Positions 2,784 through 37,538 of a stretch of DNA of 64,000 nt are shown here, piece by piece. A program made the translations under genes and the position numbers. Numbering within the stretch: the stretch's first letter is position 1; the number at the start of each line of letters is the position of its first letter. Under the pieces are notes generated by a model. The model saw nothing but the letters and a program-made list of their open reading frames with translations. It searched no databases and was not told the DNA's origin. This stretch comes from Alphaproteobacteria bacterium (GTDB lineage: Bacteria > Pseudomonadota > Alphaproteobacteria > Micavibrionales > Micavibrionaceae): positions 1-64,000 of the forward strand of contig JADLAT010000023.1 in assembly GCA_020848095.1 (NCBI GenBank), written 5' to 3'.

Positions 2784-4850
2784 TTAATTGCTAGCGACAA
2801 GCCTTAGCGTATTTTCCACAACAGGTGTTTGTCGTGGTTTTGCAAACTCACGCGCATGGAAGGGCGCCAAAATTCCAGTATTAATTTCTGAAATGCCTTT
2901 ACCGGCGCACATATCTTGAATAATCGTATTCAAATGACGCGCTGCGCCATGGCTAAATCCGTGTTCCTGCGCATATCCCCCAACACGGTCATGAAAATCT
3001 GTTATAATATCACGTGCTTGATCGCGATATTTTTTATCAACCGCCATTAAATACTCCGGCTGTGGGCGCATGGCAAATGCGGGTGGTTGAATATGCCTTT
3101 GCAAGGTTACTACAGCCTGTGCCAGTTCTTCAAACGCAGCAGGTCCGCCGATATGCTCTATAAACCCGCGACTTAAAGGCGGCGCTTTTTGAATGCCGAA
3201 CACGCCGCCGGACATCCATGATTCTCTCAAAAGGCTTTGCCTTTTATCTTGCCCGTTATCTACCGGTAAACCCTCCCGCTCAGTGTGTTCCAGATAGGCA
3301 CGCGGCAACGGGCGCAACCCGGCCGGGTTTAATTTTCCAGCGTGTTTTTTTTCTACAAAATCCACTCCCAGATTTGGATTTGCCGGATTGCGCAAGACCG
3401 CGGCAATCAAAACATCTTCATCGGCAGGATTTTCAATGCCACGTTCCTGAAGCTTGGCACGGGCCGTTTCCATACCCGGCGGCAAAGGATTCGCAGACAG
3501 ATCTATGGGTCTATCCAGTTTGAGTTGAGTCAATGCCATGCTTACCAGTTTCGGGTCTGCGCTTTCAGGCACCTTGCCCAACCCACCCGCCAGATAATTG
3601 GCCGTAGGACCCGTTAAACTCGCTAAAGGATCTTTCCCCTGCGCCTTGCGCAGTACCGCGAAAGCCGCCTCCGTGGTCGTCAACATCGCATAAGGTGTCA
3701 CCTGCGTTGGGTTTCCGAGACGCGGCAGTATTTCCGCCTGCATTTCATAGACAGCGATCTGAATTTCGTCCCAGTCTGTTGTGCCCAGTGCTGCCGACAA
3801 ATTGGCCTCCAACCCTGGAATCGCGCGCAAAGTGGATGAAGCGCCGCCGGGTGCCCGCGCCGCACGCATAGCCGAGAGCAGGCGCGGATTATATTTGGTT
3901 TCAGAATCACGGTAACGCGCCCGCAGTTCCAGAAGCGACTTCCTGTCGGCCTCAATCGCGTCCATATTCACATCAGGCGCACCGGCCCTTACTTTTTCAT
4001 CAGGATGCGCCAAAATCGCATCACGCATTTTTAAAATATCGGGCTGGGCCGTATTGCCGGCAATGGCCGGGTGCAGCACATCAACACCAACGATTTTACC
4101 CCGTGCTGCCGCCGCCTCAATCGCCGCCATATATGCTGGAATTGCCTCCCCATACGTATCATGAACGTGAATATCTATGGTTTGTTCCGGCAGCTGCTCC
4201 AGCAGCTCAGTTACCAGTTCGCGCACAAACCCGGCATCGATACGCCCGCTGGCAGATTTAAGATATAAACCTTTATGACCGCTCTCTATAAGCTCCTTCG
4301 CAGCCTTAACACAACTTTCCAGCGTGATATTAGGATTATCCTCGATACATATCCCCCCTTGCGCGGAGATATCCAGCCCCGTTTCTTCACGAAGTTCCTG
4401 TACAGCATGCGCCACGGATTCCATACGCGCCGTATCGTTCAGGCCGTGAAAATTCTGGAACACCTGTACCCCGGCTTCGGCATGGGCGCGCAATGTGGCC
4501 TTAATGACATCATAGGGGGAAGCTTCATACCCAACACCGCATTCATTACGAAACAGGGCTGTTTTCACCGCATCGGGATAAGCTGCATTGATCGTGTTAA
4601 TAAACTCATTCGGTTCACGATCCTTGGAGGCCGGGACCGCATAAAGAGTGCCGCCGTTAGTCTGTAGCGTTCCATCGCCAATTGTCATGCGACCAGCGTT
4701 AGGGTGCGTGGCGGCTATTGCTGCCGCAGGAACATCCGCTCCCATCAAGGACTGAATGGAATCACGGAGGGTATTGTTAAGCCTTATTTTTTGAACGGGA
4801 GGGGGCGTGGTGTTGGATACCGTTGTAAATTGTGTGCTGACCGTGTCCAT
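2784..4850 (-). CDS. Biotin-less carboxyltransferase of the pyruvate carboxylase / oxaloacetate decarboxylase alpha type
   Basis: 688 residues from ATG 4850. An upstream TTG at 4895 is in frame, but the GGTGAGG at 4862-4868 favours 4850. The N-terminal half is a DRE-TIM metallolyase barrel. It has TLRDSIQSL (equivalent of RDAHQS, metal-binding Asp), FRNECGVGY, VFQNFHGLND, LYLKSASG (equivalent of the carbamylated metal-ligand Lys) and the metal-ligand pair IDIHVHDTYG. A PGGASSTL segment aligns with PGGQYTNL, placing Ser at the catalytic Thr. The conserved PYC_OADA region follows (VTPYAML, LAGGLGKVPE, DEDVLIAAVL). The last 130 or so residues are unfamiliar, and no MKM biotinylation motif is present. 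No biotin carboxylase or decarboxylase beta/gamma gene is nearby. Family membership is clear; substrate and partner are unknown. Confidence 0.8.
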   Translation of the reverse strand: MDTVSTQFTTVSNTTPPPVQKIRLNNTLRDSIQSLMGADVPAAAIAATHPNAGRMTIGDGTLQTNGGTLYAVPASKDREPNEFINTINAAYPDAVKTALFRNECGVGYEASPYDVIKATLRAHAEAGVQVFQNFHGLNDTARMESVAHAVQELREETGLDISAQGGICIEDNPNITLESCVKAAKELIESGHKGLYLKSASGRIDAGFVRELVTELLEQLPEQTIDIHVHDTYGEAIPAYMAAIEAAAARGKIVGVDVLHPAIAGNTAQPDILKMRDAILAHPDEKVRAGAPDVNMDAIEADRKSLLELRARYRDSETKYNPRLLSAMRAARAPGGASSTLRAIPGLEANLSAALGTTDWDEIQIAVYEMQAEILPRLGNPTQVTPYAMLTTTEAAFAVLRKAQGKDPLASLTGPTANYLAGGLGKVPESADPKLVSMALTQLKLDRPIDLSANPLPPGMETARAKLQERGIENPADEDVLIAAVLRNPANPNLGVDFVEKKHAGKLNPAGLRPLPRAYLEHTEREGLPVDNGQDKRQSLLRESWMSGGVFGIQKAPPLSRGFIEHIGGPAAFEELAQAVVTLQRHIQPPAFAMRPQPEYLMAVDKKYRDQARDIITDFHDRVGGYAQEHGFSHGAARHLNTIIQDMCAGKGISEINTGILAPFHAREFAKPRQTPVVENTLRLVASN

Positions 4851-5061
4851 AAAAATGTAAACCTCACCTGCAAATTTTTTTGTTCGTTGAGGCAAGTGGG
4901 CTTATAGACGCATCAAAAGATCACGCGCCGCCCTTCCGAAAATTCCTCAAACTTATTATGTATTGTTCATAAAACAATGTTTCCTATAGCGTCAACGAAA
5001 TTTTATTGTGCGCCGTAGCAATTCAAAGCACAGATGGGGGTATAAGAGAATGCGTAAAATA

Positions 5062-5115: not shown

Positions 5116-6651
5116 TTATTTCCAGCGTAAAACGGGGTTACGGGCGGCTTTGACCTCATCAAGGCGGCGGCGCGGCGTGGAATGAGGGAAGGCATGGAAT
5201 GTCTCCTCCGCATTTTCAAGGCGCGCCTGAGCGGCGATGTCCTTCATAACATCAATGAAATGGTCTATTGCAGCCTTGGATTCGGTTTCCGTTGGCTCGA
5301 CCAGCATAGTACCCGGTAACACCAGCGGGAAATACACCGTCATTGGATGAAAACCATGCTCTACCAGCGCCTTGGCCATGTCGAGCGTTGAAACGCCGTT
5401 TTCCTTCTGTTTTTTGTCCGTAAATAAGGCCTCATGCATGCACGGCCCCTGAGCCGCGAATGGCGCATGGAAATCGCCCTCCAGCGCACGCAGGATATAA
5501 TTAGCCGCCAGAACGGCATCTTCCGAGACCTGCTTCAGGCCATCCCCGCCATGGGAAAGCATATAGGTCAGCGCCCGCACATGCATGCCGAACTGCCCCT
5601 GATAGCCCTTTAAACGGCCCATCGTTTCAGGGCGATCCGCCTCGGTCTCCAGATGGTAGTTTTCGCCATTTTTAACAACCGTGGGGACAGGCAAGTATTT
5701 CGCCAGCTCTTCGGTCACGCAGATCGGGCCGGAACCCGGGCCGCCGCCGCCATGGGGGGTTGAGAATGTTTTATGCAGATTGATATGCATGACATCCACG
5801 CCGAAATCAGCAGGGCGAATTTTACCCACCAGCGCATTGAAATTGGCGCCATCACAATAAAAATACCCACCGGCCTTACGCAATTCGGCGGCAATGGGAA
5901 GAATTTCTTTCTCGAACAGTCCACAAGTGTTGGGGTTTGTGACCATCATACCGGCGACATCCGCGCCGTCCGGGTCGGTCAGATACAAAGCTTCCTTGAA
6001 CGCCGCCAGAGAGAGCATGCCGTTTTCCCTGGTAGAAATATTACGCACCTCATAGCCGCACATGGCCGCCGTAGCCGGGTTGGTTCCATGGGCCGAATCG
6101 GGCGTTAAGATAACGCGGCGCTGCTTCTGCCCCTTCATCTCATGCGCCCGTTGAATGGTCATGATGCCCGCGAGTTCCCCGTGCGCCCCTGCTGCCGGGC
6201 TTAAGCAAATGCCGGGCAGGCCGGTCATTTCAGAAAGCCAGTTTTGTAATTCATACATCAAGGCCAATGCGCCTTGAGTCGTGCTTTCGGGCTGCAAAGG
6301 ATGCAGAGCCGCAAAACCGGGCAACCGCGCCACTTTTTCATTCAAGCGCGGATTGTGCTTCATCGTGCAGGAGCCCAGCGGGAAAAAGCCGTGGTCAATG
6401 GAATAATTCCATGTGCTCATGCGCACAAAATGCCGCAAAGCCTGTGGCTCAGAGACCTGTGGCAGGCCCATATCACCGCGCGGTGCAAAACCGGTGCGCA
6501 AAGCAAGCCCTTCGGGCGCGGGCATGTCCACGCCGGAATGATCCGAGCGTTCCTTCTCCCAGAGCAGGTTTTCTTCGTAATGCAGACCGCGATTGCCATC
6601 AGCCATTTTTGTTTCTTCCATCGTTTGTTCGATTTTCTTTTCGGCGGTCAT
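5116..6651 (-). CDS. gcvPB: Glycine dehydrogenase (decarboxylating) subunit 2
   Basis: 511 residues. Catalytic half of the split P-protein, a PLP enzyme that decarboxylates glycine and passes the aminomethyl group to lipoyl-GcvH. Seen: YSIDHGFFPLGSCTMKHNPR near residue 81, the PLP-lysine segment HINLHKTFSTPHGGGGPGSGP near 290, and LEPTETESK-like LVEPTETESK near the end. The ATG overlaps the gcvPA stop as ATGA, so the two subunits are translated together. The N-terminal 15 or so residues (MTAEKKIEQTMEETKM) are a charged extension. Confidence 0.97.
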   Translation of the reverse strand: MTAEKKIEQTMEETKMADGNRGLHYEENLLWEKERSDHSGVDMPAPEGLALRTGFAPRGDMGLPQVSEPQALRHFVRMSTWNYSIDHGFFPLGSCTMKHNPRLNEKVARLPGFAALHPLQPESTTQGALALMYELQNWLSEMTGLPGICLSPAAGAHGELAGIMTIQRAHEMKGQKQRRVILTPDSAHGTNPATAAMCGYEVRNISTRENGMLSLAAFKEALYLTDPDGADVAGMMVTNPNTCGLFEKEILPIAAELRKAGGYFYCDGANFNALVGKIRPADFGVDVMHINLHKTFSTPHGGGGPGSGPICVTEELAKYLPVPTVVKNGENYHLETEADRPETMGRLKGYQGQFGMHVRALTYMLSHGGDGLKQVSEDAVLAANYILRALEGDFHAPFAAQGPCMHEALFTDKKQKENGVSTLDMAKALVEHGFHPMTVYFPLVLPGTMLVEPTETESKAAIDHFIDVMKDIAAQARLENAEETFHAFPHSTPRRRLDEVKAARNPVLRWK

Positions 6652-7928
6652 GCCAGCACCTCTTCCAAAACGGTGGCAAAAGTTTCTATGTCGTCTTCTG
6701 TGGTCATTTCCGTGGCGGCCACCAGCAATCTGCCGCCCTCCAGCGGATAGCCCGCGATGATTCCCGCGCCAGCCAGTTTTTCCACCACTTCGGCAGCAGG
6801 CTTGGAAAGTTCCACCGTGAATTCATTAAAGAAGCTCTCATTCACGATTTTTACGCCTTTAACTTTTTCCAGCGCATCGGCCGTCTTGATCGCCGCTTCG
6901 TGATTCAAGCGTGCGAGATCGCGGAAACCGTTTTCACCCAGCAAGGCCATATGCACCGTAAAGGCCAGTGCGCATAATCCCTGATTCGTACAGATATTGG
7001 AGGTCGCCTTTTCGCGGCGGATATGCTGCTCCCGCGTGGAGAGAGTCAGCACGAAACCACGGCGCCCGTCTGCATCTTCGGTCATGCCGCAAACACGGCC
7101 CGGCATCTGCCGCAGATGTTTTTCCCGGCAGGCAAAAAAGCCCAGATGGGGGCCGCCAAAACTCATGGAGATGCCGATGCTCTGTGCCTCCCCGCAAACA
7201 ATATCAGCCTGCGCGGGGGCGGGCAGCAGCCCCAGAGAAAGAATTTCATTGATAACAACGATCAGCAATGCGCCCGTTTCATCACAAATCTTGCGCCATT
7301 CATCATATTTTGCGGGGTTACCCAGAAAGTCCGGTGATTGCACGATTACGCAAGCGCAGCTCTCATCCGGCGCACCATCAACAATTACGGCATCATCGAA
7401 ATTGCTCATATAGGTTTTAAGCACTTCGCGGTATTCAGGGTGGAGCGTATTGCCAATGGCAACCTTGCGGCGGCGGGTCAAACGCATAGCCATCAGCGCG
7501 GCCTCCGTACAGGCGGTCGATCCGTCATAAAGAGAGGCGTTGGCGATTTCCTGTCCCGTTAATTGCGCGATAAAGGTTTGAAACTCAAAAATAACCTGTA
7601 GCGTGCCCTGCGCGATTTCCGGTTGATAGGGCGTGTAGGCCGTCAGAAACTCGGAACGCTGCATCACATGATCAACGCTGGCCGGGATATGGTGGTAATA
7701 CACGCCCGCGCCCAGGAAGAAAGGCCCTTGTGTCGCGTTGTGATTTTGATTGGCGTATTGTGTGAGAATGCGCTCTACCTCAAGTTCACCCTTATGATCC
7801 GGCAGATCAACCCGGCCCTTAACAAAGGCAGAAGGCGGCACATCCGTGTAGAGATCATCAACGGATTTTACGCCGATTGTTTTGAGCATTTCTGCTCTGG
7901 CATTTTTGGTCTGGGGCAGATATCGCAT
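6648..7928 (-). CDS. gcvPA: Glycine dehydrogenase (decarboxylating) subunit 1
   Basis: 426 residues from ATG 7928 (MRYLPQTKNARAEML). An in-frame TTG at 7952 would add eight residues but has no ribosome site. It is the non-catalytic partner of gcvPB in the two-gene P-protein found in alphaproteobacteria, archaea and Gram-positives. Seen: GAGVYYHHIPASVDHV, TAYTPYQPEIAQGTLQ, NASLYDGSTACTEAAL and GGPHLGFFACREKHLRQMPGR, all typical of this subunit. It is preceded by gcvH and overlaps gcvPB by four bases. Confidence 0.97.
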   Translation of the reverse strand: MRYLPQTKNARAEMLKTIGVKSVDDLYTDVPPSAFVKGRVDLPDHKGELEVERILTQYANQNHNATQGPFFLGAGVYYHHIPASVDHVMQRSEFLTAYTPYQPEIAQGTLQVIFEFQTFIAQLTGQEIANASLYDGSTACTEAALMAMRLTRRRKVAIGNTLHPEYREVLKTYMSNFDDAVIVDGAPDESCACVIVQSPDFLGNPAKYDEWRKICDETGALLIVVINEILSLGLLPAPAQADIVCGEAQSIGISMSFGGPHLGFFACREKHLRQMPGRVCGMTEDADGRRGFVLTLSTREQHIRREKATSNICTNQGLCALAFTVHMALLGENGFRDLARLNHEAAIKTADALEKVKGVKIVNESFFNEFTVELSKPAAEVVEKLAGAGIIAGYPLEGGRLLVAATEMTTEDDIETFATVLEEVLA

Positions 7929-8004
7929 TTTTTCACCACGCAATTTATACAAAAAGACTTAAAAGGAGGGTTTTAATTCACCCGCCAGTCCGTTCGTTGT
8001 TTGT

Positions 8005-8379
8005 CTATATCGTTTTCAAGTAATCTTCGTAGGCGGCTTCATTCATTAAACCGTCAAGCTGTGATGCATCACTCATTTTAATTTTGGCAATCCAGCCGCC
8101 CTCTTTCAGAGGTTTTGCAATCATTTCCGGATCACCGGGCATGTTGTCGTTGGCCTCAACCACTTCGCCATCAACGGGGGAGTAAACCTCAGCCGCCGTT
8201 TTAACCGATTCCACAACAGCAAAATATTCTTTTTTCTTAACCTGTTTGCCAATCTCCGGCAATTCGACAAAGACCAGATCGCCCAAGGCGTCCTGCGCAT
8301 ATTTTGTGATGCCCACCCAAGCGATATCGCCATCGACGTAAATACATTCGTGATCTTGTGTAAATTTCAGTCCGCCCAT
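8005..8379 (-). CDS. gcvH: Glycine cleavage system H protein
   Basis: 124 residues, normal length. The lipoyl carrier that shuttles the aminomethyl group between P, T and L proteins. The lipoyl-lysine lies in VESVKTAAEVYSPVDGEV at residue 60, preceded by LGDLVFVELPEIG. A 76-base gap separates it from gcvPA. The L protein (lipoamide dehydrogenase) is not in the window and is normally shared with 2-oxoacid dehydrogenases. Confidence 0.98.
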   Translation of the reverse strand: MGGLKFTQDHECIYVDGDIAWVGITKYAQDALGDLVFVELPEIGKQVKKKEYFAVVESVKTAAEVYSPVDGEVVEANDNMPGDPEMIAKPLKEGGWIAKIKMSDASQLDGLMNEAAYEDYLKTI

Positions 8380-8522: not shown

Positions 8523-9632
8523 CTATTTCTTCATCGATTTTGTTTTCGCCGGCGCGAACGGCAAGCCTGCTACTTCAGCCATAATATTGCGGCCCCGAAC
8601 ATTGACGAAAATTTTCTGCCCCGGCACGGCCAGATCCGTCTGGATATAGCCCTGTCCAATGGATTCCTTCAAAGAAGGGGAAAAACCGCCGGAGGTCAAA
8701 GCGCCTACAATTTCATCACGATTATTGCGAATCTCCGCCCCTTCGCGGGCGACACCTTTTTCCAGCAGCCTGACGCCTATGCGTTTGCGGGCAACGCCTT
8801 TTTCTTTCTGCGGCAGAACGATGTCCGCTCCGATGAATCCGGTATTGTTCTTGCTCATGATCCAGCCTATATCGGCTTCCACTGGTGATGTTTGCGCATG
8901 AATGTCATGCCCGTAAAGCGGATAGCCCATTTCAAGGCGCAGGGAATCACGCGCCGCCAGACCGATTGGTTTAACCGCTTCATGAGCGAGCAGAGCCTTA
9001 GCCAAAGCCACGGCATGTGCGTTCGGAACACTGATTTCAAAACCGTCCTCTCCGGTATAGCCCAGACGGCTTATAAACAAATCAACATCCTTACCATCAA
9101 TCACCGCCTTCGTTTCCGTCATGTGCATATAAGGCAGGGCGGAGAGATCAAGATTCAAGGTCTGCGCCATGACCGATTCGGCCTTTACCCCCTGCAATGC
9201 CAAAAGTGCCCGATCATCCAGACGCGTTAATTTCAGATCCGGCGTAAGCTGGCTTTGAATCCAGGCGATATCCTTTTCCTTGCAGCCCGCATTAATCACG
9301 GTGAAAAATCCATCCGGCGCCGTGCGCGTAATGATGAGGTCGTCAATGATGCCGCCCTGCTCATTCATCAGCACCGTATATTGTGCCCGGCCCGGCGCTT
9401 TTTGTTGAAAGCCCGATGGGGTGAGGCGCTCCCAGAACTGGGCCGCGCCCGCGCCCTCAAGAACAATCTGTCCCATATGCGAAACATCGAAAAGGCCACA
9501 GGCATTGCGCACCCATTCATGCTCCCCGATCACGCCCAAGGGATAATAAAGCGGCATATCATAGCCAGCGAATTCCCCCATTTTTGCACCCAGATCAATG
9601 TGAAGGTCGTGCAGGGCGGTTTTTTGGGTCAT
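8523..9632 (-). CDS. gcvT: Aminomethyltransferase (glycine cleavage T protein)
   Basis: 369 residues. Transfers the methylene from aminomethyl-lipoyl GcvH to tetrahydrofolate and releases ammonia. Seen: KMGEFAGYDMPLYYPLGVIGEHEWVR-type N-terminus, FDVSHMGQI, LGYTGEDGFEI near residue 190, ARDSLRLEMGYPLYGHDI and the C-terminal TSGGFSPSLKESIGQGYI. First gene of the gcvT-gcvH-gcvPA-gcvPB run. The 109-base upstream gap is too short for, and shows no sign of, the tandem glycine riboswitch often found before gcv operons. Confidence 0.97.
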   Translation of the reverse strand: MTQKTALHDLHIDLGAKMGEFAGYDMPLYYPLGVIGEHEWVRNACGLFDVSHMGQIVLEGAGAAQFWERLTPSGFQQKAPGRAQYTVLMNEQGGIIDDLIITRTAPDGFFTVINAGCKEKDIAWIQSQLTPDLKLTRLDDRALLALQGVKAESVMAQTLNLDLSALPYMHMTETKAVIDGKDVDLFISRLGYTGEDGFEISVPNAHAVALAKALLAHEAVKPIGLAARDSLRLEMGYPLYGHDIHAQTSPVEADIGWIMSKNNTGFIGADIVLPQKEKGVARKRIGVRLLEKGVAREGAEIRNNRDEIVGALTSGGFSPSLKESIGQGYIQTDLAVPGQKIFVNVRGRNIMAEVAGLPFAPAKTKSMKK

Positions 9633-24545: not shown

Positions 24546-26354
24546 ATGCTCGTTACAATCGGCTACGGCCTGAATGCTGCACGGCACAAACACGTGGAAA
24601 CGCCATTCCCGGCCCCCTTCATCATCGAAAACAGGCCGCGCGGCACAGCCTTTTACGATAGTGTCGGCAACCAGTTTAGGGCACAGGTCACGGCCTCCGG
24701 GTCATTTAACGATCTGATGAAAACGTATTTCGACCCCACCACGGCGGGCGGCGTGCAGGATATGTCCACGGATGGCTGCAGCATCTTGAAATCCGTGGAG
24801 GTGGCGGCTGGCGGCGCGCAGTACCTTATCAATGACGATAGCGGCGCAGATCCCGCAGGATGGACACGCGGCGCAACGTATTACACTGCCGTTAAGAACG
24901 CCATGAGCACAGGCCCGGAAACATCCGATTACGCCATTATTATTTCAGGGACGAATGATGCCAACCCCGCCGGGGGGAACACCAAGGCCAAGCACAAGCA
25001 GGCGCTGGCAAAGCTGAAACAATTTATCCGTGAGGATTTTATATATTCCCAGTGCGGGTTTTTGCATATCCTCCACCGCAGCGATTTTGCGGGAAGTTCT
25101 GACACGCTGTATCAAGCCATCCGCGAAGCGCAGCTTGAGATGATTGCCGAGGATGACTGGTTCAAGCGCATGCCCGATATGTATGATCTGGATCAGGCCG
25201 ATCAATCACATTTTACAACAGGGGTCTATCAAACCGCTTTCGCCAGTCGTTATGCGAAGGCCGTGGCCTATGTTTTCGGGAAAATTCCGACAACAGGGGT
25301 TTACGGGCCGGAAGTGACAGCGGCTGAATTTAACACCGATCATCTTTTACTGAGTGTGGCCCATGATGGCGGGAGTGATTTTGCGACCATCCCGGCGCTG
25401 GCGGAAAATACCATCGGGCTTGAGATTGGCTCCGTAATCTATAAACCCTCCTCCATCACGCGGGTGGATGCCACAACGCTTAAATGTAATTTTGAGAATA
25501 TCGGGCTTTTGGATGGGGCCATCGGCGCGGCCAAAATCGTTTATGGAACGATGGAGCCTTTATCCCTCACAGCGCCAGAGGTGGTCAAGGACAATGCCAC
25601 AGACGCGCGGCCTTTGCGCTCCAGCGTTTTGAGCGCGGTGAATAACGACCCGCTTTGGAATATCCATGATCTGGATCTGGATTTGATTGCCAAAACGGGC
25701 ACGAAGACGTTTTCCGGTTCCGATGTCACGGGCATTACCGACCGGATGAACGGCACATGGACATCGCCCGATAATTACTGGCCGTATTATGATGCGGCGG
25801 CGTTTGGCGGGGCCGGTGCGCTGACCTCCCCCGATGGCACAACGCTTTTAATCAGTGGCGCACCATTTACCAAGTCAAATACGGGCTGGGGCGGAATTGT
25901 TTTTGAAGCACCAGCAGTGACGGCCTCCAATAAATATCTTCTGACTTTTGGCCTGAACTCCGGAGGGGGTAACCAGAACACATTTTATATGACTACGGGC
26001 GGCGCATTATATATGCAAAGAAACCAGTCAAATGCGCCCGTTTTAATTTCAGGAGCGGCGGATTTACGCGGTCAGAAGCATATTTTGATCTGGAATTACC
26101 GCAGCACCGGCGCGGTAGATGTGTATTTGAATAATAACGCCGTGGTGACCTTTGATCCATCCGACAATTTAATTTCATGGGATTATATCACCCTGTTCAA
26201 CCGCACGTTTTCCGAGACGGGCGGAACGGTGGGCTTTAAGATTGCCCGGCTCTGGCACAGGCACACGGCGCATGGCGTTAATCCGGATGATCCCGCCATT
26301 GCCGCTGTCATTGCTTTCTTTAACGCGCACTATGGGTTAGGCTTAGAGTCTTAA
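24546..26354 (+). CDS. Large protein with SGNH-hydrolase-like N-domain and LamG-like C-domain
   Basis: 602 residues, not matched to a named family. The N-terminal 250 or so look like an SGNH/GDSL hydrolase: IIISGTNDANPAG near residue 137 fits block III (GxND) and DQADQSHFTTGVYQTAFASRYA near 220 fits the Asp-x-x-His block. The expected nucleophile block is unclear (perhaps STDGCSILKS near 76). The last 200 residues (GWGGIVFEAP, YLLTFGLNS, VDVYLNNNAV, GFKIARLWHRH) look like a concanavalin/LamG beta-sandwich. There is no signal peptide. Shine-Dalgarno AAGGAG nine bases upstream. Possibly a glycan esterase; unproven. Confidence 0.5.
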   Translation: MLVTIGYGLNAARHKHVETPFPAPFIIENRPRGTAFYDSVGNQFRAQVTASGSFNDLMKTYFDPTTAGGVQDMSTDGCSILKSVEVAAGGAQYLINDDSGADPAGWTRGATYYTAVKNAMSTGPETSDYAIIISGTNDANPAGGNTKAKHKQALAKLKQFIREDFIYSQCGFLHILHRSDFAGSSDTLYQAIREAQLEMIAEDDWFKRMPDMYDLDQADQSHFTTGVYQTAFASRYAKAVAYVFGKIPTTGVYGPEVTAAEFNTDHLLLSVAHDGGSDFATIPALAENTIGLEIGSVIYKPSSITRVDATTLKCNFENIGLLDGAIGAAKIVYGTMEPLSLTAPEVVKDNATDARPLRSSVLSAVNNDPLWNIHDLDLDLIAKTGTKTFSGSDVTGITDRMNGTWTSPDNYWPYYDAAAFGGAGALTSPDGTTLLISGAPFTKSNTGWGGIVFEAPAVTASNKYLLTFGLNSGGGNQNTFYMTTGGALYMQRNQSNAPVLISGAADLRGQKHILIWNYRSTGAVDVYLNNNAVVTFDPSDNLISWDYITLFNRTFSETGGTVGFKIARLWHRHTAHGVNPDDPAIAAVIAFFNAHYGLGLES

Positions 26355-26373: not shown

Positions 26374-27150
26374 ATGTCTATTCTTCGAAAATTTTTTAAA
26401 TGGCAATATGCTCTGTCGATGAAATTCGACAGGGCTTTTTTAGATAAAACCTATACGATTTATGGCACTACAGATTTTCATGTAAGCCTGATTCCGGATT
26501 TCGTGCCGGCCGGGGCGGTGGTCTATGATATCGGCGGCGGAAAATGTCCGCATATTTTTCCCGCTCTGAAGGAAGAACGCAAGATCCGCAGCATCGGCGT
26601 TGATATCGATGAGCAGGAATTAGCGCGCGCACCACAAGGTGGATACGATCAGACCATCTGCGCCGATATTACAAAGACTACCGGACCCGGTTATGGCGAT
26701 ATTGTCATCAGCCGCGCAGTTCTGGAGCATGTCAAAGATGCCAAAGCGGCCCTTTTTAACATGGCCGGTTTTTTAAAGCCCGGCGGGTTGATTATTGCCT
26801 ATGCGCCTTGCCGCAATGCATGGTTTGCCCGCTTGAACATGATTTTGCCCGAAGGGCTGAAAAAACGGCTTATAAATTATTTTTATACCGATGCCGGGCT
26901 GGCTGAAGTTATGGGGTTCAAAGCCTATTACAGCCATGGAACGCCCGCCGGTATAGAGGCCATTGCCCGTGAAGCGGGCCTGAGGATTGTCGAAAAACGC
27001 CTGTATTATATGAGCAATTATTTTGCATTTTTTACACCGTTTCATGTTTTCTGGCGGTTATACCAAATAACAATGCGGGCTCTGGGTACGGAGCAATTCT
27101 GCGAGGGTTTTGCTTATGTCTTTGAAAAATCCGTGACCGGGGACGTATAA
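26374..27150 (+). CDS. Class I SAM-dependent methyltransferase
   Basis: 258 residues. SAM motif I AVVYDIGGGKCPHIFPALKEE near residue 49, acidic VDIDEQEL, then GDIVISRAVLEHVKDAKAAL and LKPGGLIIAYAPCRNAWFARL. It starts 19 bases after the SGNH/LamG gene and overlaps the convergent Wzy-like gene by 37 bases. It probably methylates a glycan or lipid-linked precursor. Confidence 0.78.
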   Translation: MSILRKFFKWQYALSMKFDRAFLDKTYTIYGTTDFHVSLIPDFVPAGAVVYDIGGGKCPHIFPALKEERKIRSIGVDIDEQELARAPQGGYDQTICADITKTTGPGYGDIVISRAVLEHVKDAKAALFNMAGFLKPGGLIIAYAPCRNAWFARLNMILPEGLKKRLINYFYTDAGLAEVMGFKAYYSHGTPAGIEAIAREAGLRIVEKRLYYMSNYFAFFTPFHVFWRLYQITMRALGTEQFCEGFAYVFEKSVTGDV

Positions 27151-28346
27151 TCCAGCCGTGATGCGCGGCGGCGACGCGCCAGATCGGCAAAGTTTATTTC
27201 TTTATAGACATAACACACCGCCAGCAAGAGCCAGAAATCCGCCGTCCGGATATTCTGGTGCGTCAGCCCGTATAAAAACAATATCCCGATTAAGGAAATT
27301 ACCAATAAATCATTATGGCGGCCTATATAAAAAAGAAGGCCAAGGAAAAGCAGGCTTCCCAAAAATCCATAAGCAAAAACCAGCGTACCCACACCGGAAT
27401 GCATTTCAAGAGCGGTAGAAAAATCGGCAAATCTTGAATAACCGCCCTCACCCGCGCCGAAAATCAAAAATTCAGGATATTGAACAATCCGTAAATATCC
27501 GCGCCCGGCAACGGAATCGTCCCTTTCCCCCCCAATGTTTTCCAATCGTGACACCGCATTTGCAAGCGGGCCCATGTTTTCGAGCAGATGTTCAAACCGA
27601 GAAACCTCAGAGAGGCCATAAATCAAAAAGAGAAAACCCGCAAAGAGTACGACCGCCCGCGTTTTCAAGGTCAGAGCCGGCACAATCACCAGCGTAGCCA
27701 TCAGCAGGATGTAACAGATCAACCCCGCCTTAGAGAGGGAGAGGAGTTGCAGATATCCCAAAATCAATAACAGGCCTATATCAAGCAGATTAAGGCGGGC
27801 CTTGGCCTTCAGCACGATCAGCAACCCGGCAGCCATGAGCGACCAAAAGGCGAGCTGGTTCGGATTAATGAACGTACCAGTCTCCCGAAACCCACGCAAG
27901 CTGGGCAAAAATTGAATGACTAGAAACTCCACAATAATTGCGATCACCAGACCGTAATAAAGCGCCCGCCATGTTTTTTGCGGGGAACGGCGCATCAGGG
28001 AAATTACCAGAATAAAGAAGCTGGCGTTATAGAGGTAATAAAAGCTGCTTTTGAGGAATGTAAAATCCGGCAGAGCGATGTAGTGGATCATATTGATCAA
28101 AAACGTAAACGCACCAAAACCCAGCGCATAGAGAAACACCGGATCGAACCGCGATTGCGCACGCGCAATAAAGGCCAGAAAGTTAATGCCGATCGCCAGC
28201 GCAATCACAAAATCTGCAGGCTGCGGCAGCCCGCTGGGGAAGATTAGAAATATGGACGTAACCATGTAGATGAAAATCGCAGCATTGCCAAAATACACAG
28301 CCCAAGGTAGCTTTTTAAAGGGCATTTCTGGATTAAAGGAATTCAT
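27114..28346 (-). CDS. O-antigen ligase / Wzy polymerase-like membrane protein
   Basis: 410 residues, about 10-12 membrane spans, with one larger periplasmic loop (FEHLLENMGPLANAVSRLENIGGERDDSVAGRGYLRI, about residues 255-290) ending in the arginine-containing SVAGRGYLR. This is the usual layout of the WaaL/Wzy ligase-polymerase superfamily. These enzymes join repeat units or attach chains to a lipid or protein. The ATG abuts the GTG of the divergent gene with no intergenic base. Confidence 0.75.
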   Translation of the reverse strand: MNSFNPEMPFKKLPWAVYFGNAAIFIYMVTSIFLIFPSGLPQPADFVIALAIGINFLAFIARAQSRFDPVFLYALGFGAFTFLINMIHYIALPDFTFLKSSFYYLYNASFFILVISLMRRSPQKTWRALYYGLVIAIIVEFLVIQFLPSLRGFRETGTFINPNQLAFWSLMAAGLLIVLKAKARLNLLDIGLLLILGYLQLLSLSKAGLICYILLMATLVIVPALTLKTRAVVLFAGFLFLIYGLSEVSRFEHLLENMGPLANAVSRLENIGGERDDSVAGRGYLRIVQYPEFLIFGAGEGGYSRFADFSTALEMHSGVGTLVFAYGFLGSLLFLGLLFYIGRHNDLLVISLIGILFLYGLTHQNIRTADFWLLLAVCYVYKEINFADLARRRRASRLDYTSPVTDFSKT

Positions 28347-29102: not shown

Positions 29103-30166
29103 TCGCCGAAAGCCAGCTTACAAAAAAAACCAGTTTTATGGTCTTGCAGGTCTGGCGGGCGCTGGCGGCGTTTATCGTTATGGCCGGGCATGCAAATAAC
29201 GAGGCGATGAATATCGCCAAAAACACCGATATGTTTTATCCGTTTTCCCGTTACCCCAGTGGGGTGGGCGTTGATATTTTCTTTGTCATCAGCGGCTTTG
29301 TGATTGTTTACGCCAGCCGTAATCTGATTGGCCGGGCGGGGCGCTGGCGCGGGTTCATGTGCCGCCGTTTGATCCGTATTGTGCCGCTATACTGGTTTTA
29401 CACCAGCTTGATGCTGGGCATTGCCTTTATCCTGCCGCAGGTTTTTGATACGGCAAGGCCGGAGTTCTGGCACCTTGTGCAGTCCTATTTCTTTATCCCG
29501 CATGTCCGGCCCTTTGGCGATGCGGTGCGGCCCTATCTGGCTTTGGGGTGGTCGCTCAATTACGAGATGTATTTTTATGTGATTTTTGCCGCGCTGATGT
29601 GTTTACCGTTAAATCGTATGATGGGTGCGCTTTTGCTGTTTTTGATCTCCAGCGTGCTTATCGGTCTGTCTTTACCGCCGGGGGCGATGCCCTTGAAATT
29701 CTGGTTTGATCCTTATGTTCTGGAGTTTTTAAGCGGAGCCTTGCTGGCCTATGTGTTTTTGCGCGGATGGCGTCTACCGAAGGCAGCCTTCTGGCCCATG
29801 GTGGCTTTGGGTTTTGGGGGTTTAGTTTATATCGTGATCCCGGAAAGTTATAGCGTTGAAGGGCAATTGCTGCGCTTTTTTATCAGTATTTTATTTGTGG
29901 CCGCCGCCGTTTTGCCGCGCGGGGTTGAGGATATGGCTCCGCCAAAAATTCTGGTGGCTTTAGGGGATAGTTCCTATTCGCTCTATCTCTCCCACCCGTT
30001 TGCGATGGGGGCGGTGCAACTTGTCTGTATGAAGCTGGGGGCGCCACTGCCGCTTTTTGTTGTGCTGACGATTATTGCCGCTCTGATCGCCGGGCATGTG
30101 TCCTATTTGATGATTGAGCGCCCCGTTCAAAAGTTTCTGCTAAACCGTCTGGAGAGAGAGAAATGA
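29099..30166 (+). CDS. Acyltransferase family 3 (membrane O-acyltransferase)
   Basis: 355 residues, about ten membrane spans. Seen: the N-terminal LQVWRALAAFIVMAGHANNEA with the family's conserved His, SGVGVDIFFVISGFVIVYAS, RLIRIVPLYWFYTS and LGWSLNYEMYFYVIFAA. All are hallmarks of OafA/NodX-type enzymes that acetylate or succinylate sugars. Translationally coupled (ATGA) to the genes on both sides, so it forms a unit with the transglutaminase-like and HTTM genes. Confidence 0.9.
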   Translation: MIAESQLTKKTSFMVLQVWRALAAFIVMAGHANNEAMNIAKNTDMFYPFSRYPSGVGVDIFFVISGFVIVYASRNLIGRAGRWRGFMCRRLIRIVPLYWFYTSLMLGIAFILPQVFDTARPEFWHLVQSYFFIPHVRPFGDAVRPYLALGWSLNYEMYFYVIFAALMCLPLNRMMGALLLFLISSVLIGLSLPPGAMPLKFWFDPYVLEFLSGALLAYVFLRGWRLPKAAFWPMVALGFGGLVYIVIPESYSVEGQLLRFFISILFVAAAVLPRGVEDMAPPKILVALGDSSYSLYLSHPFAMGAVQLVCMKLGAPLPLFVVLTIIAALIAGHVSYLMIERPVQKFLLNRLEREK

Positions 30167-31773
30167 ATCTGTTCACAAATATGCGCGCCTTGCGGCTGGA
30201 GATAACCGGGCCGGAATTTAAGAACTTTGCGCTTTTGTTGCTGGCCAGTATCGCCGTTTTTTTTGTCTTTAAATGCGCCGGATTTTATACCGTTGAGAAG
30301 ATCAGCAGTGCGTTTTTTCTGATTGTGCTGGGCGTTGCGGCGGCGGGCAGTTTTTTGAAGATGTCCGATTTTGTACTGCCCAGCCGGATTGTGCTGCGGA
30401 CAATTTTCGGCCTGTTTGGGCTGTATGTTCTGGCGGCCTATCCGACCATGCCGGATGCGGGGCTATCCGCTCTGGATGGCTGGCTTTTGCACTATGGACG
30501 TTTCGTAGCCGCAGGGTTTGCGGCGCTGGCTTTACTACGTCCGTCTTTCGGCTTGGTGCTGCTGGCCTATATTTTCTGGTTCAAGGGACAGCTCAGTGCG
30601 TTTTTTATCGCCAAGCTGTCCGTGACCGATTATATGCCCTTGATCGAGGTGGCGGCCTTTATTGTGATTGCGCAGATGATCTGGATGGTATTTGCCCGGC
30701 TTAAGCTCTATCCACCCGAAGCGCCGCGCGATGAGCGGATTTTAAACACAGGCGAGAAAATTTTCCTCTGCGCCGTGGCGGTCCATATGGCCAATTATTT
30801 TTACTCTGCCGTTCAAAAAATCCTGATCGGGGATCACCCGCTGAGCTGGGTTTTAGAAAACCAGACGCAGGTTTTAACCAGTAATGCTCTGGCTTACGGC
30901 CAGCTGCCCATAAGTTTCAGTCCGTTTTTAACCGGGCTTTCCTATGACGGATTGGCCTTATTGATTGTTGCGGTTAATTTCGTTTTATTTTTCGGCCAGC
31001 TTTTTTCCCTGATTGCCCTGTTGCGCGTGCGCTGGGGGATATGGACGACGCTGTTTTACGATTTAACCCATGTGGTGATTTTTATCACCAGCGGAATCTT
31101 TTTTTACAAATGGATTATTCTTAATCTCTCGGTTGTGATGGCGCTGGAGACGCTGAAAAAGCGCGTTGTCAGCCCCGCTATCGGTTTGTTGCTCATGTGT
31201 ATGGTTGTGAGCGCCCCTGCCGCCTTTTGGGTGGCGCATCTGGGGTGGTGGGACACGCCCCAGACCAATATTGAATATTTCAGCGCGATAACGAAAGATG
31301 GCCGGGAAATCAAGGTTCCCAGCAATTATTTCGGCGGATTTTCCATTGCGGTAGGCCAGCAGCGCCTTATTCCGGATAAGACGGAAGGGTTTTTGCCCAC
31401 CACGACTTACGGTCTGACCCGCGATCAACATATTATGGAGCAAGGTCTGGCCTGTCGTCTGGAAAATGGTGCGGGCGATGTGATTACAACCGTCTTTGCC
31501 GACCCGGAAAACAAGATTGAGCCGTTTATCCGCGCCTATCATCAATGGGTTTTAAAGCGGGCCGGGCCAGACGGCCATTGGTCGTTTGATCTTTACCCGC
31601 ATCATATTTTCTCTTTTCCGTGGGATTTCACAGCATTTAACACCTTGAATTTAAATGATATCGCCACATATCGTTATACGATACAATCGGCATGTGTCCG
31701 CATGGAAAAAGGCCGGGCCGTTATAACCGTTACGAAAGAAGGCCATCATGACATCCGCCTCGATACCCCCTGA
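30163..31773 (+). CDS. HTTM-like multi-span membrane protein
   Basis: 536 residues: about ten membrane helices, then a C-terminal soluble part of about 160 residues. The helical core (NYFYSAVQKILIGDHPLSWVLEN, LFGQLFSLIALLRVRWGIWTTLFYDLTHVVIF, FFYKWIILNL) resembles the HTTM group related to vitamin-K-dependent gamma-carboxylase. This is a by-eye assignment. The last 26 bases overlap the DCC protein gene; HTTM and DCC (DUF393) genes are known to be frequent neighbours. Biochemical role unknown. Confidence 0.55.
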   Translation: MNLFTNMRALRLEITGPEFKNFALLLLASIAVFFVFKCAGFYTVEKISSAFFLIVLGVAAAGSFLKMSDFVLPSRIVLRTIFGLFGLYVLAAYPTMPDAGLSALDGWLLHYGRFVAAGFAALALLRPSFGLVLLAYIFWFKGQLSAFFIAKLSVTDYMPLIEVAAFIVIAQMIWMVFARLKLYPPEAPRDERILNTGEKIFLCAVAVHMANYFYSAVQKILIGDHPLSWVLENQTQVLTSNALAYGQLPISFSPFLTGLSYDGLALLIVAVNFVLFFGQLFSLIALLRVRWGIWTTLFYDLTHVVIFITSGIFFYKWIILNLSVVMALETLKKRVVSPAIGLLLMCMVVSAPAAFWVAHLGWWDTPQTNIEYFSAITKDGREIKVPSNYFGGFSIAVGQQRLIPDKTEGFLPTTTYGLTRDQHIMEQGLACRLENGAGDVITTVFADPENKIEPFIRAYHQWVLKRAGPDGHWSFDLYPHHIFSFPWDFTAFNTLNLNDIATYRYTIQSACVRMEKGRAVITVTKEGHHDIRLDTP

Positions 31774-32182
31774 AGCCGCTATAAACTCCGGCGCTGCGCC
31801 GGAGGGGAACTGGATTGTCTATGACGGGGACTGCCCGTTTTGTAAAAATTATATGCGCCTGAACAAGCTAAAAGAAACGATCGGCCCGGTGCGGATTGTG
31901 AATGCGCGCAGCGGCGGAGCGGAAGTTGAATATATAAAAACACAGGGGCTTGATCTGGATGAGGGCATGGCCATGTATTATGAAGGGCAGCTTTATCACG
32001 GGGGGGACTGCCTGAATATGATGGCGCTGCTCTCCAGCGATTCCGGGGCTTTCAACCGCCTAAGCGCCTGGGTTTTTAGATCAAAAACCCGCGCCCGTGC
32101 GTTGTATCCGACCTTGAAATGCGGGCGTAACATGGCCTTGCGGGTCTTAGGACGCTCCAAGATTTCCGGTGAAAAGTTCTAG
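31748..32182 (+). CDS. DCC-family (DUF393) thiol-disulfide oxidoreductase-like protein
   Basis: 144 residues. Family signature YDGDCPFCKNYMRLNKLKE at about residues 24-42, giving a thioredoxin-like CxxC-containing fold; KTQGLDLDEGMAMYYEGQLYHGGDCLNMM follows, with the second typical GGDC element. No signal peptide, so cytoplasmic or membrane-associated. Start ATG at 31748 lies inside the HTTM gene. Its TAG stop shares the palindrome CTAG with the convergent RTX gene. Confidence 0.85.
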   Translation: MTSASIPPEAAINSGAAPEGNWIVYDGDCPFCKNYMRLNKLKETIGPVRIVNARSGGAEVEYIKTQGLDLDEGMAMYYEGQLYHGGDCLNMMALLSSDSGAFNRLSAWVFRSKTRARALYPTLKCGRNMALRVLGRSKISGEKF

Positions 32183-34434
32183 GCGATCAGATTGCCGTTA
32201 TCGAGCAGGGTTTGCGCATCCAGAACCTCGCCGGGATTACTGAGCTTGGCGATATAGGACATGCTATACGCATCGCCCGCGCCATCGCGATCGACCGCCA
32301 CGGAGATATCTCCCTTGGATGCGGGTGCATCGAAGCGGATGAAATCGTTAATATCGCTGACGCCCTCTTCGTAGCCAATCAGAATATCCGTGATGTCCAG
32401 AACATCGCCCTGTGCGGTTTTGAAATCGCGGATACGATTGATGGTGCCGTCCATATCCTCGACCGTGAATTTAAAAGTATCCGCCCCTAACTGGCCCCAG
32501 AGTGTGTCTTCACCGGCGCCGCCATAGATAATATCATCACCGTCGCCCGCAAAAATCGTGTCTTTTCCGGCATCGCCATAGAGCGTGTCATTGCCCGCAT
32601 CACCGCTCAGGATATCATCGCCATCGCCGCCATTAAGGATGTCATCGCCCAGCCCGCCATAGAGCGTATCTATGCCGGCATCGCCATAGATCGTGTCGTT
32701 GCCGTCCTCACCATATATTTTATCGTCACCATCACCGCCATAGATCGTATCGTGGCCTTCATTGCCGGTAATGATATCATTGCCGGCATCGCCGTAAATC
32801 AGGTCATCACCAAGGCCACCATAGATTGAATCATCACCATTACCGCCGTAGATGGTATCATTTCCATCGTTCCCGTAGAGGTAGTCTATCCCGTCATCAC
32901 CGTGCAGCGTGTCATCGCCCGCATCGCCATAGAGGTAATCGTTACCGATTCCGCCATGGAGCGTGTCATTACCGTCATCACCATGGAGAATGTCATTGCC
33001 TTCATCACCATAAAGCGTATCGTTTCCATTGCCGCCGTTCAGGTGGTCGTTTTTATCTCCGCCATAGACAATGTCATCATCATCATCGGCAAAAATCGTA
33101 TCAGCCCCGCCGCCGCCATAGATAATGTCGTTCCCCGCGCCGGAATTTATTGTGTCATTGCCGTCCTGCGCATAAATAATATCGTTCAGGGCGGTGGTAT
33201 CAATCATGGAATCGCCAATGCTGGATACGATAATATTGGTGAGAATGGTCAGATTTACGGTCGCGCTGCCTGTGCCGCCCTGCCCATCGAGCGCGGTATA
33301 GGTGAAGCTGTCCGGTCCTGTGTAGCCCGGCGCCGGAATATAGGTAAAATCGCCATTGGCCAGAAGCGTTACCGTTCCGCCATTAGCCGTAACAAATGTT
33401 TTGGGTTCAACGGAAAGTGCATCGCCCTCAATATCGGTATCAACGCCATGCCCGTTATCGGCCAATACATTGCCCGTTACAATATTATCTGCATGCCCTG
33501 TGATTTCATCGTCTTGCGCCGCCGGACCATCATTCACAGCGGCGACATTCAATGTAACTGTCGCGATAGAAATGGCACCATCCGGATCAGACAGGGTATA
33601 TTCGAAACTATCCGTCCCGTAAAAATTCTCTGCCGGGGTGTAGGTGAAGCTCCCATCCGCTAACAAGACCACCGTCCCGCCATTAGCGGTGGTGACGTTT
33701 GCCGGGGTAACGCTCAGGGTATCGCCATCGGCATCGCTGTCTGCGCCTGCGGTATTATCGTTCAGCACGTTGCCGGTGATGACCACATCCTCATGCCCGT
33801 TGAAAATATCGTCCCGGGCAACAGGCGCATCATTTACATCCGGCTTTGTGATGGTGATTTCAAGCGTTACATCATCGAAATCCTTATCCCCCAAACCTTT
33901 AGAATCTTCAAAACCTATCTTTATGGTTTCGGTTGTATCGTTTTCCTCACGCGTGATTTGCGTGTGATCCTTGCCATCGCTATTTAAGCTATCGCCGCCG
34001 CCATGATAAATTTGGCCCTTTATAACGGTTTCCTTGCCCGCATAAGAATGGATAAAACTAACGTCCCTGGCATTATCGTAAATAGTGGCCGGGCGTTCAT
34101 CACTTTGGCCGTGGTGATAAATAAAGTCGATATCGCCTTGGGTCAGATCAATTTTTTGGAAACTTTTATTGGCTTTATAGCCATCGGCAATGATGAAAAT
34201 ACCAAGACTTTGTGCCCCATCGCCCCCCAAATCAAGATTCAGGCTTGTGCCCGCAGGTGCGCTTTGAGCATTTTCAAAGACAATCTCTACGCCCTCAATC
34301 GTACCATCAGCGCCGATCTTATAATACCCGACCGTGTTTTTGGCGCTGGAAGAAGAGCCTGTGAGTTTAAGGCTCGCCTCCGTACTTGTATCCGTATGCC
34401 CAAGGGGCGTGCTTTTGGTGTTTATGCTTTTCAA
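32179..34434 (-). CDS. Secreted RTX protein with DUF4114 and tandem-95/cadherin-like domains
   Basis: 751 residues from TTG 34434 (AAAGG seven bases upstream; no suitable ATG nearby). Order: a DUF4114-like domain (to about 190, signature GFEDSKGLGDKDFDDV); two tandem-95/cadherin-like repeats (about 200-400, each with GNVLxDN, LSV, GTV, FTYxP, DSFxY); a long RTX array of GGxGNDxIY-type nonapeptides (about 415-660) that bind calcium and fold outside the cell; and a type-I secretion C-terminus (GADTFKF, IRDFKTAQGDVLDI, DAQTLLDNGNLIA). No signal peptide. Likely a surface or matrix adhesin. No ABC exporter genes are nearby. Confidence 0.85.
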   Translation of the reverse strand: MKSINTKSTPLGHTDTSTEASLKLTGSSSSAKNTVGYYKIGADGTIEGVEIVFENAQSAPAGTSLNLDLGGDGAQSLGIFIIADGYKANKSFQKIDLTQGDIDFIYHHGQSDERPATIYDNARDVSFIHSYAGKETVIKGQIYHGGGDSLNSDGKDHTQITREENDTTETIKIGFEDSKGLGDKDFDDVTLEITITKPDVNDAPVARDDIFNGHEDVVITGNVLNDNTAGADSDADGDTLSVTPANVTTANGGTVVLLADGSFTYTPAENFYGTDSFEYTLSDPDGAISIATVTLNVAAVNDGPAAQDDEITGHADNIVTGNVLADNGHGVDTDIEGDALSVEPKTFVTANGGTVTLLANGDFTYIPAPGYTGPDSFTYTALDGQGGTGSATVNLTILTNIIVSSIGDSMIDTTALNDIIYAQDGNDTINSGAGNDIIYGGGGADTIFADDDDDIVYGGDKNDHLNGGNGNDTLYGDEGNDILHGDDGNDTLHGGIGNDYLYGDAGDDTLHGDDGIDYLYGNDGNDTIYGGNGDDSIYGGLGDDLIYGDAGNDIITGNEGHDTIYGGDGDDKIYGEDGNDTIYGDAGIDTLYGGLGDDILNGGDGDDILSGDAGNDTLYGDAGKDTIFAGDGDDIIYGGAGEDTLWGQLGADTFKFTVEDMDGTINRIRDFKTAQGDVLDITDILIGYEEGVSDINDFIRFDAPASKGDISVAVDRDGAGDAYSMSYIAKLSNPGEVLDAQTLLDNGNLIA
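32500..33190 (-). repeat. RTX nonapeptide repeat array (about 27-bp units)
   Basis: Tandem degenerate units encoding GGxGxDxhY calcium-binding motifs within the 751-residue RTX protein. The DNA repeat is visible as recurring ATCATCACCATCACCGCCATAGA-like blocks. It is coding, has no separate spacers, and explains the repetitive look of this stretch. Confidence 0.85.
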
Positions 34435-37500: not shown

Positions 37501-37538
37501 GAATCGTGCCCCATCTCTTGTGTTGAATCGTCACTCAT
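34524..37538 (-). CDS. Serralysin-type M10 metalloprotease with long RTX array
   Basis: 1004 residues. The metzincin zinc site HEIGHSLGLGH is at 173-183 and the Met-turn SIMSY at 207-211, so the protease looks active. The N-terminus, with no signal peptide, has a cysteine cluster (ACGCPACSG, Cys15, 17 and 20). After the catalytic domain come a serralysin-C-type region and two blocks of GGxGNDxLY repeats, the longer from about 525 to 890. The type-I secretion C-terminus resembles that of the neighbouring RTX protein (both end DAQTL-x5-IIA-like). Calcium-dependent extracellular protease; substrate unknown. Usual serralysins are about 480 residues, so the repeat region is strongly expanded. Confidence 0.9.
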   Translation of the reverse strand: MSDDSTQEMGHDSACGCPACSGSNHTDPLFGVQQGLYYDDPAAAPSTYGTTQQMVDQLVTGYWQYAGGSANTRQWAQDTVTFSFGSGYTNAEKDSFRMAFNLWADVADIQFSEVSSGGNINIVEGSDGGAYSGSSYYSGSGNIASNTLSIDTDTGSWSDLTTIGKYGVQTILHEIGHSLGLGHQGNYNGNVNYDTQVAYLNDNRQYSIMSYNNANLLGTDHWAQSGVWQYAATPMLYDIMALQQIYGVNNSTRAGDTVYGFNSNAGYTQYDLSVSSAPFAIWDGAGNDTLDLSGYSTNQVITLVEGAFTSAGYMTNNIVIAFGAVIENAIGGSGNDSLTGNTTNNILRGGLGNDTFYASTGNDTLNGEGGTDTAVYAFDISAFLVSLVDSVTLTLQHIAQSWTDTVTNIENFLFNGTSYTFAEVEAQAYEPETYTMFFREGAAKYYYQSTALGSDTLTAAELGYSGATGNIATFTRTTTNLDINITNANAPGSITLYGLAGDDSMTLTGTHANFAVIFDGKAGNDTLTITGVVGNDTLYGGLGDDVMSAGAGNDRLYGQDGNDTLNGDAGDDVLSGGDGDDILNGGDGNDDIYGGNGIDIVSGGIGNDRIFGDAGNDILNGNAGIDKIYGGTGDDTINGGADNDILGGDDGADTIHGDDGNDYIYGNAGADLLYGDAGIDAIYGGADNDTISGGDGNDYLYGESGDDIINGDAGDDAIYGGDGADTLNGGAGRDSLYGGTGNDTINGGADNDVMRGDAGDDIMHGDDGDDVLFGDADNDTLYGDAGNDTLYGGWGNDTLWGGTGNDIMSGDAGNDTLYGEAGSDTLYGEAGDDIIYGGDDDDLAYGGADNDTLYGGNGNDILSGDSGNDTLYGDAGNDRLYGGDGNDTLYGGLGVDLIWGGAGADTFVFRAADLDGNYDYIKDFNAAEGDKLDLSNLLSGFTIGVSNISDFLTFTAPNAKGEVVMGIDRDGTAGVFNLEYIAKINTGGALLDAQTLYNSGDIIA
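34850..35960 (-). repeat. RTX nonapeptide repeat array of the M10 protease
   Basis: About 1.1 kb of tandem, degenerate 27-bp units encoding GGxGNDxLYG motifs. Such arrays are prone to recombination and to assembly collapse, so repeat copy number in an assembled sequence may be uncertain. Confidence 0.85.

Follow-up and report, generated by a model that had tools for sequence, protein, structure and literature searches.

On the minus strand of the 64,000-nucleotide window (the whole stretch of DNA analysed) lies a gene for a 688-residue protein with a carboxyltransferase domain and a helical C-terminal segment (Table 1). The gene is real; full-length homologues of its product are present in other genomes, and an in-frame TTG is also found upstream of the ATG, at 4895. 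The host is a small bacterium of aquatic origin, and the gene recurs sporadically among its marine relatives. Directly upstream, also on the minus strand, sequence recognition identified a complete glycine cleavage set (gcvPB, gcvPA, gcvH and gcvT; 5116-8379 and 8523-9632). Downstream, the same approach identified ribosomal proteins L1 and L11, nusG and probably secE (620-2418, minus, and about 2460-2660), an arrangement that is common in bacteria. Elsewhere in the window, four ORFs of 370-602 aa (24546-26354, 27114-28346, 30163-31773 and 37677-38792) had no Pfam match at 1e-5, and three of them lie within a surface-polysaccharide-like neighbourhood. Two adjoining RTX-repeat proteins are encoded at 32179-34434 and 34524-37538 (minus). 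One of them contains a serralysin-type M10 peptidase domain; its partner contains cadherin-like and Ig-like domains. A carbon-nitrogen hydrolase with a weak GNAT-like match at its N-terminus is encoded at 50391-51929 (plus).

Table 1. Features of the carboxyltransferase-type gene and its product, in window coordinates
Feature	Residues	Position	Strand	Basis or detail
Whole gene		2784..4850	minus	688 aa + stop; ATG start at 4850, stop at 2784
Carboxyltransferase domain (TIM barrel + funnel)	18-517	3300..4799	minus	Structure model and VIA-align
PF00682 HMGL-like	166-249	4104..4355	minus	26.4 bits, just below curated cut-off of 29
PF02436 PYC_OADA	366-487	3390..3755	minus	39.7 bits, cut-off 27
Helical C-terminal segment	518-688 (core about 561-650)	2787..3299	minus	Structure models
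R29-D30 of RDSIQS; D30 aligns with metal-ligand Asp of PC	29-30	4761..4766	minus	Invariant in 34 members and 7 controls
R101, equivalent of pyruvate/oxaloacetate-binding Arg606 of L. lactis PC	101	4548..4550	minus	Invariant
K198, equivalent of carbamylated metal-ligand Lys (carboxylysine 703, L. lactis PC)	198	4257..4259	minus	Invariant
H228-x-H230, metal-ligand His pair	228-230	4161..4169	minus	Invariant
PGGASSTL; S339 aligns with catalytic Thr (Thr867 L. lactis, Thr882 R. etli)		3828..3851	minus	Alignment

The protein contains a complete carboxyltransferase domain of the type found in pyruvate carboxylase (PC), transcarboxylase 5S and the oxaloacetate decarboxylase alpha subunit (OadA). The sequence-only reading had noted the metal-site motifs RDSIQS, LYLKSASG and HVH and a retained PYC_OADA region; all three motifs are present in the ORF, and PF02436 scored above its cut-off and was matched in all 25 family members scanned. 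PF00682 was also matched, but fell just short of its curated cut-off. Scores against the NCBIfam models for pyruvate carboxylase, PycB, OadA and 5S were 50-125 bits, compared to cut-offs of 402-1182 (pyruvate carboxylase, EC 6.4.1.1, 125 against 965; Na+-pumping oxaloacetate decarboxylase alpha, 106 against 756). With scores so far below the cut-offs, the protein is clearly in the superfamily, yet in none of its named groups.

An AlphaFold2 model of the 688-aa protein, built from 25 aligned sequences, reached a pLDDT of 83.4 and a pTM of 0.85. By VIA-align, whole carboxyltransferase domains matched model residues 18 to about 517-523 at Z 36-40 (5ks8_D, 39.9; 5S 1rqh, 39.5; PC 3bg5, 38.1; OadA 2nx9, 37.7), and the next fold matches were DmpG-type aldolases at Z of about 25. 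The top profile match among solved structures was OadA of Vibrio cholerae (2nx9, 1.3e-53). A close resemblance to some characterised enzyme was not found: the nearest solved relatives are 5S, PC and OadA, at about 20-23% identity.

Within the order, 142 genomes yielded 17 with a match, all in the window organism's own family; one match (G110/L051) proved to be an ordinary fragment of the KDMAG type and was excluded, leaving 16/142 carrier genomes. Wider sampling found two carriers among 385 genomes of the class, own genome included, and the own genome as sole carrier among 398 of the phylum. Further members come from named contigs of SAR116, OCS116/Rhodobiaceae, a micavibrio MAG and Candidatus Endobugula sertula, a gammaproteobacterial symbiont. 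No copy was found in viral contigs, and the best hits on plasmids were only ordinary PC/OadA-type matches with less than 30% identity. Family members are 26-45% identical to the window protein. In a tree with PC, PycB, OadA and 5S controls, where rooting on PC is arbitrary, 34 members form one clade with support of 0.996 and a long stem (1.33). This clade is previously unlabelled and separate from PC. Two homologues are split. In Candidatus Endobugula sertula (L090, 7577-9549) the homologue lies in two ORFs of 127 and 488 aa, through a frameshift or decay in the symbiont, or through an assembly error. In a SAR116 single cell (L061, 8001-9907) it is broken near the C-terminus, probably by a sequencing error.

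Alignment of the 34 members with seven controls (PC, PycB, OadA and 5S) showed R29, D30, Q33, R101, K198, H228 and H230 to be invariant in the family (34/34). All of these except Q33 correspond by alignment to metal or pyruvate residues of L. lactis PC, in which Arg533, Asp534, carboxylysine 703, His732 and His734 are metal ligands, Arg606 binds pyruvate and Asn609 is the partner of this substrate Arg (PMC9581989). Ser870 of that enzyme, three residues past the catalytic Thr, contacts biotin. The hydroxyl of the catalytic Thr867 sits between biotin and pyruvate (PMC9581989), and in R. etli PC the mutation T882A abolishes the biotin-dependent reaction (PMC5895798).

The replacement of this Thr by Ser, proposed earlier from an alignment by eye, is confirmed by our alignment, but it is a weak sign of a new reaction. 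We rejected it as a diagnostic feature: Ser at 339 is unremarkable because 5S and the two-subunit pyruvate carboxylases (two PycB proteins) carry it as well. Stronger evidence comes from the spread of residues at this position (Ser in 18 members, Ala in 14, Gly and Pro in one each), which leaves 16/34 members with no hydroxyl, together with several changed neighbouring positions. Glu is replaced by Gln (Q63), the Trp before GG by Gly, Ala, Asn and others (65), and the Asn609 equivalent (the Asn of LLRGxN) by Phe, Cys, Val and others (104). Further clade-specific changes are Ala/Gly to Y196, Met/Gln to A337, KDMAG to K[SN]A[SN]G or KDP[CV]G (e.g. KSASG, KNANG, KDPCG), and, in the TN pair, the Asn right after the catalytic Thr to Thr, Ala or Val (340). 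The clade-specific changes lie where biotin and pyruvate meet, and the Asn609 equivalent, the Asn after the catalytic Thr, the Trp before GG and the Asp-Met of KDMAG are lost or altered together. Two retained features count against independence from biotin: the position +3 from the catalytic residue is Lys or Arg in 33/34 members (Lys in the aligned alphaproteobacterial PCs), and 25/34 retain the Asp of GGATFD, which the window protein lacks.

The sequence-only reading described a C-terminal segment of 130 residues with no recognisable identity and no biotin attachment site. No known family was found for the segment, which is about 170 residues long rather than 130. Pfam detected no biotinyl domain in the 688-aa protein or in 24 relatives, and the C-terminal segment has no biotin-lysine motif. 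Both the full-length model and a model of the segment alone show it as all helical, so a biotinyl fold was rejected. Searches with Pfam, a PDB sequence profile and Foldseek returned no convincing relatives, which is weak evidence because the lone-segment model is only moderate (pLDDT 66.6). All nearly full-length family members carry an extra C-terminal part, and this part changes fast among them.

We then consider the supply of biotin. In agreement with what had been read from the sequence, biotin carboxylase is absent from the window, and a scan of neighbouring genes did not reveal a Na+-pump beta subunit. The sole PF00364 match within the window is weak (8155-8256) and falls on GcvH (gene at 8005-8379). 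A single biotin carboxylase, accC, is encoded in the host genome (1.99 Mb, 99.7% complete), together with four clear biotinyl/lipoyl domains; the remaining biotinyl/lipoyl matches are weak. One of the four is AccB (156 aa, EAMKVM), which adjoins aroQ and accC in an aroQ-accB-accC operon for acetyl-CoA carboxylase; no other free biotinyl protein carrying a biotin-lysine motif was found in the genome. The other three sit in ORFs of 438-480 aa which, by size and position, would be lipoyl-bearing dehydrogenase subunits. Biotin carboxylase and BCCP domains are absent from the 688-aa chain, and no separate 1.3S-type carrier was found in the host genome. The earlier suggestion of a dedicated separate carrier is therefore unlikely, as this nearly complete genome has one biotin carboxylase and one carrier, both in aroQ-accB-accC.

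Across the order, 13 of the 16 carrier genomes have exactly one biotin carboxylase. The exceptions are G101 with three, G107 with two and the 86%-complete G102 with none; G101 also encodes two full-length pyruvate carboxylases (L033, L034) alongside its copy of the gene. By these counts, the gene is kept without need for a dedicated biotin partner. Against biotin independence, SAR116-type marine relatives have further biotinyl/lipoyl ORFs of 72-87 aa. None of these is next to the carboxyltransferase gene in the four marine carrier loci read. The clear case, an approximately 80-aa carrier (L093), lies in what is presumably a LamB/biotin-carboxylase (AccC)/KipI-KipA-like cluster, and by sequence recognition the other loci hold dehydrogenase E1-like genes (L096, L099) or a carboxyltransferase-like gene (L101). 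For the marine relatives, we thus rejected a small BCCP as dedicated partner of this enzyme.

A true biotin-dependent carboxyltransferase could still receive carboxybiotin from AccB, which is present and could in principle donate it, or from another free carrier in the marine relatives. The precedent is transcarboxylase 5S of Propionibacterium shermanii (1rqb, 1rqh, 1s3h), a working carboxyltransferase without its own biotinyl domain that uses the separate biotin carrier 1.3S. The window protein resembles 5S in its domain, metal-site residues, Ser and lack of an in-chain biotinyl domain. The completeness of the domain, AccB-AccC in the host, the Ser shared with 5S and PycB and the retained Lys at +3 are all consistent with such a function. 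However, the window protein differs from 5S at the KDMA, W-GG and Asn positions and in its helical tail (about 22-23% identity), and its host has no comparable carrier apart from AccB. Furthermore, no dedicated carrier or biotin carboxylase is encoded, the hydroxyl is gone in nearly half of the members, clade-specific changes surround the biotin site, the gene is unlinked to any carrier gene, and the one clearly read marine carrier (L093) belongs to a different cluster. We consider this explanation unlikely.

A silent or regulatory descendant of a carboxyltransferase, with the metal site kept for structure or sensing, would fit the variable catalytic position, the fast-evolving C-terminus and the patchy distribution (16/142 in the order, 2/385 in the class), which also counts against an essential role. 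Selection data do not favour it. For marine pairs with finite dS, dN/dS was 0.05-0.15 in the carboxyltransferase domain and 0.05-0.18 in the tail, so both are under purifying selection in the marine relatives. With selection this strong, and with metal ligands and substrate Arg invariant across a long divergence, loss of catalysis is improbable. Gene neighbours differ between lineages, with no conserved operon partner, so this is a stand-alone gene.

Biotin-free chemistry on a related barrel is known from 4-hydroxy-2-oxovalerate aldolase DmpG (1nvm), which performs metal-dependent pyruvate-enolate chemistry but lacks a PYC_OADA domain and a Lys metal ligand. The likeness to the window protein lies in the TIM-barrel match, and identity is about 12%. 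That the protein is an HMGL/IPMS/DmpG-type condensing enzyme or lyase that reached the carboxyltransferase layout by convergence is scarcely credible and, as a statement of descent, largely refuted: DmpG-type aldolases do come next in fold and share the superfamily, but the protein has the PYC_OADA funnel domain, its Z to carboxyltransferase domains is 40 compared with 25, and the metal-ligand Lys is at the carboxyltransferase position.

We favour, with a probability of roughly 0.6, a stand-alone, biotin-independent, metal-dependent 2-oxo-acid enzyme built on the carboxyltransferase domain, with a helical extension replacing the biotin carrier. As the conserved parts are those for the metal, the 2-oxo acid and the enolate, while the changed parts face biotin, the simplest interpretation is biotin-free chemistry at C3, by decarboxylation or an aldol-type reaction. 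Independence from biotin is something we infer, as is any role for the tail. D30, a carbamylated K198, H228 and H230 would hold a divalent metal, and R29, Q33 and R101 would hold a 2-oxo acid resembling pyruvate or oxaloacetate. The metal would polarise the 2-oxo group and stabilise an enolate, allowing a bond at C3 to be made or broken. The enzyme may possibly be an oxaloacetate decarboxylase or aldolase. One option is beta-decarboxylation of oxaloacetate, which would give pyruvate and CO2, or of a homologue; the other is an aldolase-type lyase reaction. The biotin-independent decarboxylase, aldolase or enzyme with a new substrate proposed earlier is thus a live possibility, and the choice among reactions is not given by sequence. 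For the clade at large, in SAR116, OCS116 and micavibrio-type alphaproteobacteria, we see an even chance that its members work without biotin, as metal and carbamyl-lysine enzymes with their own helical domain that would decarboxylate, or aldol-cleave or condense, a 2-oxo acid.

The window protein shares the domain, metal site and substrate Arg with one-chain PC (2qf7, 3bg5, 7zyz) and PycB (5ks8), but has no biotin carboxylase or BCCP and belongs to a clade set apart on a long stem. Other dedicated oxaloacetate decarboxylases, including the soluble divalent-cation and FAHD1 types, have different folds; their net reaction, biotin-free, is possibly the same. These types have been reviewed together with others (PMC8100219). 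OadA of Vibrio cholerae (2nx9) has the same domain and acts together with biotin and a beta subunit in the membrane (PMC2881705, PMC8100219), whereas the window protein has neither a biotin domain nor a dedicated carrier.

The metabolic context makes a C3/C4 role plausible, as the host genome yielded a malic enzyme but no pyruvate carboxylase, PEP carboxylase or ATP-type PEP carboxykinase. The malic domain (G000, C10:14084-14479) is part of an 807-aa reading frame, whose length would accommodate a malic enzyme of several domains. If true, a C3/C4 role would carry metabolic weight in this genome. Among titles and abstracts of the open-access literature, we found no description of a biotin-free use of the metal-bearing half of pyruvate carboxylase, no work on PYC_OADA, no biochemical study of a family member, and nothing on point for SAR116 and pyruvate carboxylase. 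If the favoured reading is true, the enzyme would be a decarboxylase or aldolase type beyond those listed in a review of the PEP-pyruvate-oxaloacetate node (PMC8100219). It is likely that automatic annotation in marine SAR116 and OCS116 calls the gene "pyruvate carboxylase" or leaves it unnamed, and such misannotation would mislead carbon-flux models. Biotin dependence is the textbook property of pyruvate carboxylase, OadA and 5S. A conserved clade that has their metal and keto-acid site without the biotin apparatus is a natural experiment on the residues required for the biotin step, and bears on how biotin chemistry may have joined or left the carboxyltransferase fold.
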